Source: an uncultured Lachnospiraceae bacterium (GTDB lineage: Bacteria > Bacillota > Clostridia > Lachnospirales > Lachnospiraceae). From it: DNA of 54,922 bases. Shown piece after piece: positions 25,924 to 39,413 of this stretch. The notes beneath the pieces are model-generated. The model was not told the origin of the DNA and ran no database searches. It saw only the letters and a list, made by a program, of their open reading frames with translations. The stretch lies in the NCBI GenBank assembly GCA_944381515.1, contig CALWLM010000088.1, positions 1 to 54,922 of the forward strand. The letters run 5' to 3'. Each line of letters begins with the position of its first letter. The stretch's first letter is position 1. A program made the position numbers and the translations under genes.

Positions 25924-25965
25924 CTTTTTTCCTCCTTATTTAAATTTTAACCGCCGGTGAGTTTA

Positions 25966-26091
25966 AAAGAGAAAACCCTCTTTGCCAAAAGACAAAGAGG
26001 GCATAAGGATTCTTATCAAAAAATCTCATCTTCCTCGGCAGGCGACTGTGCTTACACCCAAAGGGTACCTGCTGTCTTCGGCAGTTTTACT
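25966..26091 (-). ncRNA. Ribosomal protein L10 leader with attenuator
   Basis: Between the rplJ promoter and rplJ the transcript contains GTACCCTTTGGGTGTAAGCA and CCTGCCGAGGAAGATGAG, typical of L10 leaders. These are followed by the terminator stem CCCTCTTTG with CAAAGAGGG (25976-26001) and TTTTCTCTTTT. The layout implies autoregulation by L10(L12)4 binding. Confidence 0.8.
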
Positions 26092-26097
26092 TTTGAC

Positions 26098-26126
26098 ACC
26101 ATATCATAAAACCATCGGGCTGTCAA
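26098..26126 (-). promoter_or_regulatory. Promoter of rplJ-rplL
   Basis: TTGACA (26121-26126), a 17-base spacer and TATGGT (26098-26103) on the minus strand, just before the L10 leader. Confidence 0.75.
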
Positions 26127-36806: not shown

Positions 36807-37811
36807 TTAGTCCTCTACGCTGTTCTTGCTGCCATGGCTGTATTCGATGCACTTGCCGGTACCGATGGCCACAGCTGTCAGCGGGTCCTCAGCGATCATG
36901 CAGTTGATTCCGGTCTTCTCCTCCAGCAGCAGATCCAGACCATTAAGCAGGCTGCCGCCGCCGGTCATCACAATGCCGCGGTCATAGATATCCGCTGCCA
37001 ATTCCGGGGGCGTGCGCTCCAGCACATTGTGTACGGCCTCCACAATCTGCATGGCGGGCTCTCTCAGGGCCTCCAGGGTCTCATCGGAAGTGATGGTAAT
37101 GGTCTTGGGCAAACCGGTAACCAGGTTGCGGCCTCTGACCTCCATGGTAGCAAGCTCTGGCCGCTTGTAGGCGGAACCAATATTGATCTTGATATCCTCG
37201 GCCGTTCTCTCACCGATTAACAGGTTATGCTTCTTGCGCATATAGCGGACAATCGCCTCGTCAAAATCATCGCCGGCCGTCTTTACAGAGGTGCTGACCA
37301 CCGTGCCGCCCAGGGAGATTACGGCGATATCTGCCGTACCGCCTCCGATATCCACGATCATGTTGCCGCAGGCCTTATAAATATCGATGCCCGCTCCGAT
37401 GGCTGCCGCCACAGGCTCCTCGATAATGGTCACCTCTCTGGCGCCGGCCTCATAGGTAGCGTCCTCCACAGCCTTCTTCTCCACCTCAGTGGCGCCGCTG
37501 GGGATGCAGACGCTGATGCGGGGCTTGCGCAGGGTACGGGTGCCGGTGGCCTTCTTAATAAAATATTTGAGCATCTTCTCCGTCACCGTGTAATCGGAAA
37601 TGACGCCCTGACGCAGAGGGCGGACCGCCACAATATTGCCCGGCGTTCTGCCAATCATCAGACGGGCCTCCTCGCCGATGGCCTTGATATCTCCGGTATC
37701 ACGATCCAGGGCCACTACGGAGGGCTCTTTCAAAACAACGCCCTTTCCTTTTATATAAACCAGTATGCTGGCGGTACCCAGATCAATTCCGATATCATAC
37801 GACAACATCAT
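36807..37811 (-). CDS. mreB: Rod-shape protein MreB/Mbl family
   Basis: 334 residues, actin-like ATPase. The phosphate 1 motif IGIDLGTASILVY, the connect motif, phosphate 2 MIVDIGGGTADIAVISLGG and the adenosine motif IVMTGGGSLLNGL are all present, and EEPVAAAIGAG is typical of MreB. It polymerises along the membrane and directs cell-wall synthesis. The gene is alone; mreC and mreD do not follow, which suggests a paralogue (Mbl or MreBH type) rather than the mreBCD operon copy. Its upstream region also holds the first small-RNA promoter on the other strand. Confidence 0.92.
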   Translation of the reverse strand: MMLSYDIGIDLGTASILVYIKGKGVVLKEPSVVALDRDTGDIKAIGEEARLMIGRTPGNIVAVRPLRQGVISDYTVTEKMLKYFIKKATGTRTLRKPRISVCIPSGATEVEKKAVEDATYEAGAREVTIIEEPVAAAIGAGIDIYKACGNMIVDIGGGTADIAVISLGGTVVSTSVKTAGDDFDEAIVRYMRKKHNLLIGERTAEDIKINIGSAYKRPELATMEVRGRNLVTGLPKTITITSDETLEALREPAMQIVEAVHNVLERTPPELAADIYDRGIVMTGGGSLLNGLDLLLEEKTGINCMIAEDPLTAVAIGTGKCIEYSHGSKNSVED

Positions 37812-37904: not shown

Positions 37905-37951
37905 TACAATCCCGTGGGATTTTTAAAGTTCTTTTTTTTAAATAATAGGAT

Positions 37952-37968
37952 TTTAAGGATTTATAAAG
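37952..37968 (+). promoter_or_regulatory. Response-regulator-like direct repeat TTTAAG-N5-ATAAAG
   Basis: The second copy at 38282-38298 reads TTTAAG-N5-AGTAAG. This resembles the TTTAAG-N5-TTTAAG boxes of CiaR-like OmpR-family regulators. Each lies about 36 bases upstream of the -35 of its RNA. The regulator is not encoded in the window. Confidence 0.45.
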
Positions 37969-38003
37969 GATTTTCATCTTTTTTTTATGCTGTCCTCACA
38001 ATC

Positions 38004-38031
38004 TGGACACATTTCTCCTCTAAACTATAAC
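38004..38031 (+). promoter_or_regulatory. Promoter of small RNA 1
   Basis: TGGACA (38004-38009), a 16-base spacer and TATAAC (38026-38031), identical in the second copy. Confidence 0.55.
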
Positions 38032-38032
38032 C

Positions 38033-38156
38033 ATACCACAGAAATGGTATAAAGCTTTTTCATACTCACGCCCGGTGGGCGACCATCGGGCAACCCCCTC
38101 CAAAAAATACCTCTTATTGAAAGCATTGCCGTGTTCCCCTCACGGCAATGTTTTCG
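38033..38156 (+). ncRNA. Candidate anti-SD small RNA, copy 1
   Basis: About 120 bases. Order: inverted repeat ATACCA-N6-TGGTAT (38033-38050), which may be a 5' hairpin or an operator; stem GCCCGGTGG-GCGA-CCATCGGGC (38070-38091) with a GNRA loop; an unpaired AACCCCCTCC (38092-38101) complementary to strong Shine-Dalgarno sequences; an A/U-rich linker; and a 15-bp terminator stem (38119-38155) with loop TTCCCCT, also SD-complementary, ending in TTTTC. The G-U pair in the first stem is G-A to U-paired in copy 2, keeping structure. No ORF with a ribosome site is seen. The architecture resembles streptococcal csRNAs; function is inferred. Confidence 0.65.
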
Positions 38157-38333
38157 TCTGGAAATATCTCCAAAGCAATCCGCCGCCTCCGGCATCCGGA
38201 CAGACAGTTTGAAACGAAGCTTGATGTATCCATATTTTACGCACGGCGCGTCCTTTTTATGTCCCTTTTATGTAACAGGATTTTAAGTATTTAGTAAGGA
38301 TTTTCATTCTTTTTTTATGTCGCCCTCACAATC

Positions 38334-38361
38334 TGGACACATTTCTCTTCTATACTATAAC
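38334..38361 (+). promoter_or_regulatory. Promoter of small RNA 2
   Basis: TGGACA (38334-38339), a 16-base spacer and TATAAC (38356-38361), with the direct repeat TTTAAG-N5-AGTAAG at 38282-38298 upstream. Confidence 0.55.
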
Positions 38362-38362
38362 C

Positions 38363-38487
38363 ATACCACAGAAATGGTATAAAGCTTTTTCATACTCACG
38401 CCCGATGGGCGACCATCGGGCAACCCCCTCCAAAAAAATACCTCTTATTGAAAACATTGCCGTGTTCCCCTCACGGCAATGTTTTCG
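38363..38487 (+). ncRNA. Candidate anti-SD small RNA, copy 2
   Basis: Same architecture as copy 1: ATACCA-N6-TGGTAT (38363-38380); a perfect 9-bp stem GCCCGATGG-GCGA-CCATCGGGC (38400-38421); CCCCCTCC (38424-38431); and a perfect 15-bp terminator stem GAAAACATTGCCGTG with CACGGCAATGTTTTC (38450-38486) and loop TTCCCCT. Both stems differ from copy 1 only by changes between G-U and A-U pairs, which supports a folded RNA. It ends 57 bases before the stop of the convergent gene at 38544. Confidence 0.65.
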
Positions 38488-38543
38488 TATACAGAACGCA
38501 TCAAACAGTCATACGGAAGCAGACAGATATGTGGGGAAGTCCG

Positions 38544-39413
38544 TCAGGACTTCCCCCTTGTCTCGTTCCATTTCTTTCTCGCCTCGTCAAAAAATTCTTC
38601 CATCCTGCCCATAGTAGCGCTGGGATGGCGTCTGCGCAGCCGTCCTCTGGCAATACGCAGCTCGGCAAGCCTCTCCTCGTTCTGCTGACGAAGCTGCGCC
38701 AGGCGGGCCGCCAGCTCTTCCCGATTCTGATCCATGCGCTGCGCCCACTCTTCCCGGCTCTGGTCGATGCGCTGCGCCAGCTCCTCCCGGCTCTGGTCGA
38801 TACGCTGCGCCAGCTCCTCCCGCTGCCGCTCCAGGCGCTCTGCCAGCTCCTTTTGCAGCCGGTCCATGTCTGCCCGCAGCTTTTCTGCCGCCACCAGCAG
38901 ACGGCGCATATCCAGGGCCTCCTTGACGCTGACGGCCACATCGCAGACGAAATAGACCGTAAAAGCCGCCACTGCCGCAATCACCTGCCAGTCCGGCCGT
39001 CCCAGCACCAGCCGCTCCACCGGCGCATGAAGAACGCGGACCAGAAGGACTGTCAGCACGCCCCAAAACAAAGAGGAGGAAAGGCAGATATACCCCCCAA
39101 ACTGTATTTTGTGATGGCTGTAGTCCCAGTAACGCACCTTAAACAAACGTTCCATAGCCCAGCCGGTCACCAGCTCCAAAAGAGTGGCTCCCACCATACC
39201 TGCCAGATAAGTGAGCGCCAGACTGTCCCGAAACGGCTGCGTTACCAGAAGCATCATCACCGCTCCGCTGCCATAGATGGGGATCACGGGCCCGTGCAGG
39301 AACCCCCGGTTCACAAACTTTCTCTTACAGACCGATACATAGGAGGTCTCCCAGATCCATCCCAGCACGCAGTAAATATAGAAAAAAGCCATCCACTGAT
39401 ACACTTTGTACAT
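38544..39413 (-). CDS. PF06541-type membrane protein with coiled-coil tail
   Basis: 289 residues. The N-terminal part has 4-5 membrane segments with FYIYCVLGWIWETSYVS, FVNRGFLHGPVIPIYGSGAV and WDYSHHKIQFGGYICL, the hallmarks of the family often named putative ABC transporter permease. The C-terminal third is a long charged helix in which the 11-residue unit EELAQRIDQSR repeats about four times; the DNA shows 33-bp repeats. An 11-residue period suggests a coiled coil. The first domain's biochemical role is unknown; the tail may tether a partner or sense membrane state. The repeat block can vary in number by slippage. Confidence 0.8.
   Translation of the reverse strand: MYKVYQWMAFFYIYCVLGWIWETSYVSVCKRKFVNRGFLHGPVIPIYGSGAVMMLLVTQPFRDSLALTYLAGMVGATLLELVTGWAMERLFKVRYWDYSHHKIQFGGYICLSSSLFWGVLTVLLVRVLHAPVERLVLGRPDWQVIAAVAAFTVYFVCDVAVSVKEALDMRRLLVAAEKLRADMDRLQKELAERLERQREELAQRIDQSREELAQRIDQSREEWAQRMDQNREELAARLAQLRQQNEERLAELRIARGRLRRRHPSATMGRMEEFFDEARKKWNETRGKS

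Follow-up and report, generated by a model that had tools for sequence, protein, structure and literature searches.

Positions 1 to 54,922 of contig CALWLM010000088.1, from an uncultured Lachnospiraceae bacterium (assembly GCA_944381515.1, hereafter the source genome), were analysed, and this whole stretch of 54,922 nt is referred to as the window. On its forward strand we predict two small RNA (sRNA) genes in tandem, each of about 125 nt, at 38033-38157 and at 38363-38488 (the second about 126 nt). Twin small-RNA genes with anti-Shine-Dalgarno (anti-SD) stretches had been proposed here in an initial annotation; the tandem loci confirm the observation, and folds and family conservation support the assignment.

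Two tandem small RNA loci

The block 37936-38107 recurs at 38266-38437 over 172 nt with 92% identity and, as annotated, a spacing of 330 bp, and the 64 nt directly after the block are also repeated between the copies (94% identity). In the source genome, blastn found only these two copies, besides short or self-complementary matches. Each copy folds into a 5' hairpin (38033-38050 and 38363-38380), a hairpin with a 9-bp stem and the GNRA-type loop GCGA (38070-38091 and 38400-38421), and a terminator-like hairpin of 15 pairs with the loop TTCCCCT (38119-38155 and 38450-38486). The folds have z-scores of -7.1 for copy 1 and -8.9 for copy 2, and none of 200 dinucleotide shuffles was as stable.

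In both copies AAAGCUUUUUCAUACUCAC and AACCCCCUCCAAAAAA are unpaired between the hairpins. The GNRA-capped hairpin, which covaries (see below), is placed between an unpaired anti-start-codon stretch, UUUUUCAUACUCA (38056-38068 and 38386-38398), and an unpaired C-rich anti-SD run, CCCCCTCC (38094-38101 and 38424-38431). Stem changes from copy 1 to copy 2 are swaps of G-U and A-U pairs, and the C-rich stretches are identical. The annotation had described the capped stem, the exposed C-rich stretch, the 15-bp stem with its loop and this pattern of substitutions, all of which we recovered on both copies; the 5' hairpin, the UUUUUCAUACUCA stretch and a CACA direct repeat in the promoter are additions to it.

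This repeat, CACAATCTGGA/CACATTT with an 11-bp period, lies at 37997-38014 before copy 1. It is a predicted response-regulator site and is kept both in the RNA family and before the gene htrA, which encodes an envelope protease of protein quality control. By promoter alignment it is followed, 6 nt 3' of the box, by the -10 element TAAACT (38021-38026). The start of the first sRNA was set 7 nt past the -10 and its end at the terminator stem. Copy 2 has the predicted site CACAATCTGGACACATTT at 38327-38344, which both copies carry, and the -10 element TATACT at 38351-38356. The -10 elements and the terminator-like hairpins are present, but a consensus scan called neither gene's promoter as sigma-70 and neither gene's terminator, whose stem has a short T stretch. 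A poor -35 would be in keeping with a promoter that depends on an activator.

RNA family and its hairpin

By sequence comparison, the loci are assigned to a Lachnospiraceae RNA family that matches no Rfam model. An Rfam search of the window at the gathering score gave no match at the loci. Elsewhere it gave only the ribosomal protein L10 leader (RF00557, 79.1 bits) at 25961-26099 on the minus strand. A sub-threshold search of the loci gave only a human long non-coding RNA motif on the opposite strand, and a search of 17 related loci gave transfer RNAs in one of them (L333) only. With blastn, matches were found in four of the six other genomes of the genus, and three further genera gave weak matches, all on one stretch, CTTTTTCATACTCA. 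A pattern of this stretch followed by CCCC matched in 52 of the 299 genomes of the family, but in seven of these every match looks like a gene start or chance; the backward control matched four genomes, once each. An exact scan of the named genome collection for AAGCTTTTTCATACTCA alone, in which stem and C-run were not required, returned at least 119 stretches. Among the matches listed (80 with titles), those from Lachnospiraceae, including Hungatella, Enterocloster, Lacrimispora and Lachnoanaerobaculum, have the hairpin and then the C-run, and one of the copies (L127) is from Lacrimispora xylanisolvens, a cultured environmental species; by a simple pattern, the listed matches from other phyla have neither hairpin nor box, and a few have a chance CCCC.

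A covariance-model search in Lachnospiraceae had been suggested as a check on the annotation. At E<=0.001 the model matched 71 of the 299 family genomes, many of which had supplied sequences to it, and 51 at E<=1e-5. Copy 2 was matched at E=3.8e-11, the window copies themselves being part of the model. Nine of 391 genomes of the class were matched, and the two outside the family (G500 and G660) look like chance. Infernal's stricter filters in these searches may miss weak members.

The alignment comprised 93 sequences; of 124 rows, 30 lacking the stem or CCC had been removed, as had L186 by hand. Each of the 10 hairpin pairs varies on both sides, pairing holds in 88.2% of cells, and the hairpin has a covariation score of 0.596, versus 0.204 after shuffling and no more than 0.116 when the pairing is slid. 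Because the alignment had been filtered for stems, the test was repeated on copies picked by promoter score and core only. Conserved stems in homologous copies, on which the annotation had staked its proposal, were found here as well: a stem of at least 7 bp is present in 102 of these 104 copies and one of at least 9 bp in 96, the corresponding shares after shuffling being 3.3% and 0.1%; CCCC is present in 102. A strict terminator follows 75 of the 104 copies versus 5 of 400 control windows, and the predicted RNA lengths for these 75 copies range from 112 to 239 nt (median 160). Many family members, a large subset, share a second stretch, UAUACCUACCAUUCCC, between C-run and terminator, which might also take part in pairing; in the window copies UACCUCUUAUU stands at that place.

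The position of the family also recurs. At 78 of 119 family copies the gene mreB is found on the upstream side, in divergent orientation and no more than 2.5 kb away; less than 1.2 kb of upstream sequence was available for 13 of the 119. In the window it occupies 36807-37811 on the minus strand and was identified by NCBIfam models NF010539 and TIGR00904, both above cut-off, and by synteny. Near-identical tandem copies are compatible with simple duplication, and so with chance repeats or a mobile element in place of RNA genes. However, the hairpin, promoter and C-run are kept across many genera, the position beside mreB recurs, and a plasmid collection gave no match to the loci. Covariation and family data are strongly against such an origin, and we regard its probability as negligible.

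Promoter box and htrA

Sixty copies aligned on the -10 share CACANTTTNGNCACATTT-N6-TATAMT, an 11-bp direct repeat also written CACANTTTNGACACATTT-N6-TATACT, and TTTAT elements precede the repeat in most of these promoters. A position weight matrix (PWM) was built from 52 of the 60 promoters and used with a cut-off score of 8. It scored above 8 in 45 of 46 members non-identical to the training set (median 51.6). Five of 58 rows filed as non-family also exceeded the cut-off, and these (L078, L097, L134, L162 and L184), which a filter had put down as chance, carry the hairpin and C-run; L157, filed as family, looks like chance. A pattern of box plus -10, with no RNA sequence in it, matched 35 of 38 sRNA-bearing genomes, mostly at the sRNA itself. 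The promoter scans span loci chosen for the sRNA, the box or htrA and not whole genomes; in the 3.6 million positions of these loci there were 186 distinct sites above 8, and downstream of 135 of them the core lay within 190 nt.

Matches of the box away from known copies led to an htrA gene in a genus-mate (L340; Pfam Trypsin_2 and PDZ), and other matches of the box pattern lay before unrelated genes or within genes. We found htrA-like genes in all 30 genomes searched. The region 5' of the best htrA scored above all 2791 background windows (maximum 5.6) in 23 of them, and whole-locus scanning placed the box before the best htrA in 25, including the source genome, whose htrA (L346) scores 34.8. 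The count rose from 23 to 25 because two htrA starts had been misplaced, and the genome of L340, which is not independent, is among the 25. The box also precedes htrA in six of eight genomes without a covariance-model match. That the CACA repeat is common to the sRNAs and htrA is therefore well supported. Control of the sRNAs by a response regulator is predicted and likely, since 11-bp direct repeats lie beside the -10 and are shared with htrA, which is CiaR-controlled in streptococci.

The box also lies upstream of other putative RNAs with a comparable layout. In six loci (L333, L336, L337, L338, L339 and L342) it is followed by UUUUUCAU, a hairpin (often GCCGGC) and then a pyrimidine run, which is CCUCCC or UUCCUC(C) in L333, L336, L339 and L342, UCUCCUU in L338 and UUCCUUUCC in L337. 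Two more loci (L026 and L029) hold other putative RNAs of this layout with CCCCC. In L326, L334 and L335 there is a box-driven stretch without the core, with a common ACUC(U/A)UACAUCCCCCUUUU before a hairpin; it is possibly a third sRNA type, and two of the adjacent divergent genes look like lipoproteins. Several TCACA/GACAC repeats were also seen in the source genome at 1450-1520 of L070 (G000:C22), between a phosphofructokinase-like gene and a flavin mononucleotide-binding-like lipoprotein gene (names by eye).

The csRNAs of the streptococcal CiaRH regulon have a promoter with the direct repeat NTTAAG-N5-TTTAAG 10 nt before the -10 (PMC3091779). The annotation had proposed a similar repeat as the regulator site of the window loci. 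TTTAAG-N5-ATAAAG (37952-37968, plus strand) and TTTAAG-N5-AGTAAG do exist, but they are not conserved: the looser form occurs in four of the 60 training promoters, all from the source genome and one genus-mate, and in none of the 46 other members, and we rejected it as a regulator site. It also sits farther upstream than the csRNA site. The form NTTAAG-N5-NTTAAG is absent from all 106 promoters (46 other members and 60 training), which have the CACA-type repeat instead.

A second comparison is the CssRS secretion-stress regulon of Bacillus subtilis, in which htrA genes have boxes with the canonical CssR sequence TTTTCACA (PMC6749698). With at most one mismatch this sequence is present in 19 of the 25 htrA promoters here (shuffled mean 1.7, maximum 7), including that of the source genome, and the htrA promoters show TTTCACA. 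Unlike the window, the CssRS regulon has no sRNA of such kind in the part of PMC6749698 that describes it. On these sequence resemblances, the reading of the CACA repeat as a putative CssR site is only moderately supported.

Pairing elements and proposed mechanism

The unpaired stretches of the RNA are complementary to AUGAAAAA and to Shine-Dalgarno (SD) sequences. The element CUUUUUCAUA complements UAUGAAAAAG, in which two lysine codons come after a start codon, and the C-run (CCUCC in some relatives) complements the SD sequence. Given a looped-out hairpin, the arrangement of these elements in the RNA matches the way SD and start codon succeed each other in a messenger RNA (mRNA). Among covariance-model relatives the run reads TCCTCCC in those of another genus and TTCCTCC in that of G594; CCTCCC or TTCCTCC, both likewise anti-SD, take the place of the C-run there. 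Counting one row per start region, 13 of 24 ATGAAAAA starts precede a hydrophobic N-terminus, the figure for the remaining ATG starts being 83 of 508 (odds ratio 6.1); without the loci fetched by seed patterns the numbers are 7 of 12 and 73 of 472.

Our best reading is that HtrA and sRNAs that block translation form a stress regulon, csRNA-like in its working but with another RNA and another site. We hold with moderate confidence that the twin sRNAs are induced together with HtrA by a response regulator of CssR/CiaR type and block translation by pairing of CUUUUUCAUA and the C-run. The regulator would bind the CACA repeat and induce both the sRNAs and htrA, and its signal may be misfolded exported protein, probably in protein-secretion stress. 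The CUUUUUCAUA element would then pair in trans with the start-codon region of a target and the C-rich run with its SD sequence, the hairpin looping out on the target with the C-run over the SD and CAUA over the AUG. The cell would then be expected to synthesise less exported protein during the clearance of misfolded protein by HtrA; a lower load of exported protein is expected because ATGAAAAA starts are enriched for a hydrophobic N-terminus.

Several results weigh against this regulon of HtrA and sRNAs. On the RNA side, the alignment was pre-filtered for stem and CCC, which flatters its covariation score, and its outermost hairpin pair is paired in only 33 of 93 sequences and unpaired in 60. 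The UUUUUCAUACUCA stretch is invariant by construction, the copies having been found with it, and the RNAs found via the promoter alone have only UUUUUCAU in common. The strict terminator test is failed by 29 of the 104 copies. In G277 a copy stands directly 5' of an htrA gene (L062, G277:C25:199096-200207); no terminator was seen there, and the element would serve as a leader, possibly in cis. On the side of regulation, five of the 30 htrA loci are without the box, and inspection by eye of six regions around htrA showed no two-component genes. Allowing up to one mismatch, TTTTCACA was matched in no more than 52 of the 135 sRNA promoters, against a mean of 11 and a maximum of 20 after shuffling, and it is in neither sRNA promoter of the window, where the best match has two mismatches. 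On the side of targets, the source genome has no second site for 17 nt of the complement of the core at up to two mismatches, and no gene recurred among 30 translated loci searched for a target. Duplex energy means over 63 translation starts of the source genome were near those of shuffled seeds (shuffles on 40), and the htrA leaders, taken together, do no better than chance (2 of 25 at 5%).

The lack of a close TTTTCACA in the window promoters lowered our confidence in the HtrA-sRNA regulon and raised that in another regulator. The repeat may be read by a different OmpR-family member (WalR- or PhoP-like), with cell-wall growth or another envelope signal as the cue and htrA as one regulon member. 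The divergent mreB described above is in favour of this, as are the 11-bp direct repeats, which are usual for this regulator class. However, the pst promoter of the source genome has TTTACA repeats by eye and not the CACA box, on which ground a phosphate regulator was rejected, and the TTTCACA of the htrA promoters also speaks against another regulator. We consider this alternative rather unlikely.

As for targets, the annotation had suggested nagB and an integrase-like gene. The duplex scan did not single these out, the two genes not being viewed individually in it. Its best CAUA-element match was the htrA leader of the source genome; the htrA mRNA was rejected as pairing target, since its leaders are at chance. 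No single dedicated long target was found, and a backward control pattern also matched in many genomes. Because no conserved target was found, duplex energies are near shuffled and htrA leaders are at chance, short pairing with several targets would be the likeliest mode. The lack of a conserved mRNA target in this partial search would also fit RNAs that are co-regulated with htrA and act mainly by binding protein or the ribosome (for example the 30S platform or an RNA chaperone). We find this improbable, as their shared single-stranded parts are anti-start and anti-SD, and in relatives the C-run swaps to other anti-SD forms, as mRNA pairing predicts.

The HtrA-sRNA regulon that we prefer shares features with several known systems. 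A streptococcal genome encodes several short csRNAs, in which stretches complementary to SD and AUG stay unpaired next to stem-loops (PMC3091779), and CiaR activates htrA too (PMC12826053). Both window copies have such stretches beside stem-loops, which supports the parallel drawn in the annotation; the predicted RNAs are likewise short and multicopy, their promoters have a direct repeat near the -10, and the control of htrA by CiaR may have a counterpart in the predicted sites before htrA in 25 of 30 genomes. In contrast to csRNAs, a hairpin separates the anti-SD and anti-AUG stretches and the host belongs to another bacterial class; a review reports CiaRH only in streptococci and in no other genus (PMC8186281). 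The multicopy LhrC1-5 of Listeria have CU-rich sites in loops and single strands and impede translation, are under control of the two-component system LisRK and are induced by cell-envelope stress, with no LisR consensus known in that account (PMC4132741). The window loci resemble them in copy number, unpaired pyrimidine-rich sites and predicted two-component control. They differ in matching no Rfam model and in the anti-start element, which the LhrC passages of PMC4132741 do not mention. Since the csRNA promoter test failed and there is no Rfam match, we assign the RNA neither to csRNAs nor to LhrC. RsaE and FsrA have a C-rich motif that binds SD sequences (PMC4132741). Unlike these two RNAs, the window loci are without an Rfam match. 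RsaE and FsrA are under other regulators.

A wider claim is possible, and we put it forward tentatively: a Lachnospiraceae-wide secretion-stress circuit in which one two-component regulator would make HtrA plus multicopy sRNAs, acting as an anti-AUGAAAAA/anti-SD two-point clamp that silences exported proteins via the first codons of their signal peptides (Met-Lys-Lys). If true, the coupling of multicopy translation-blocking sRNAs to a two-component system in control of HtrA is not confined to streptococci but occurs in a second class as well, and the beginning of signal peptides could let sRNAs pick out a whole class of proteins. A literature search, mostly of records without full texts, found no description of trans-acting sRNAs of Lachnospiraceae and no earlier account of these RNAs. 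The main text of a metagenome screen of structured RNAs (PMC8040213) is without mreB, htrA, Hungatella or Lachnospiraceae, and an unnamed supplementary entry is possible. The results give Lachnospiraceae, an abundant gut family, a defined family of RNAs together with its promoter code, htrA as partner gene and a mechanism that can be tested. Downstream of the second locus, 33-bp direct repeats were observed at 38694-38858, within a minus-strand gene (38544-39413).
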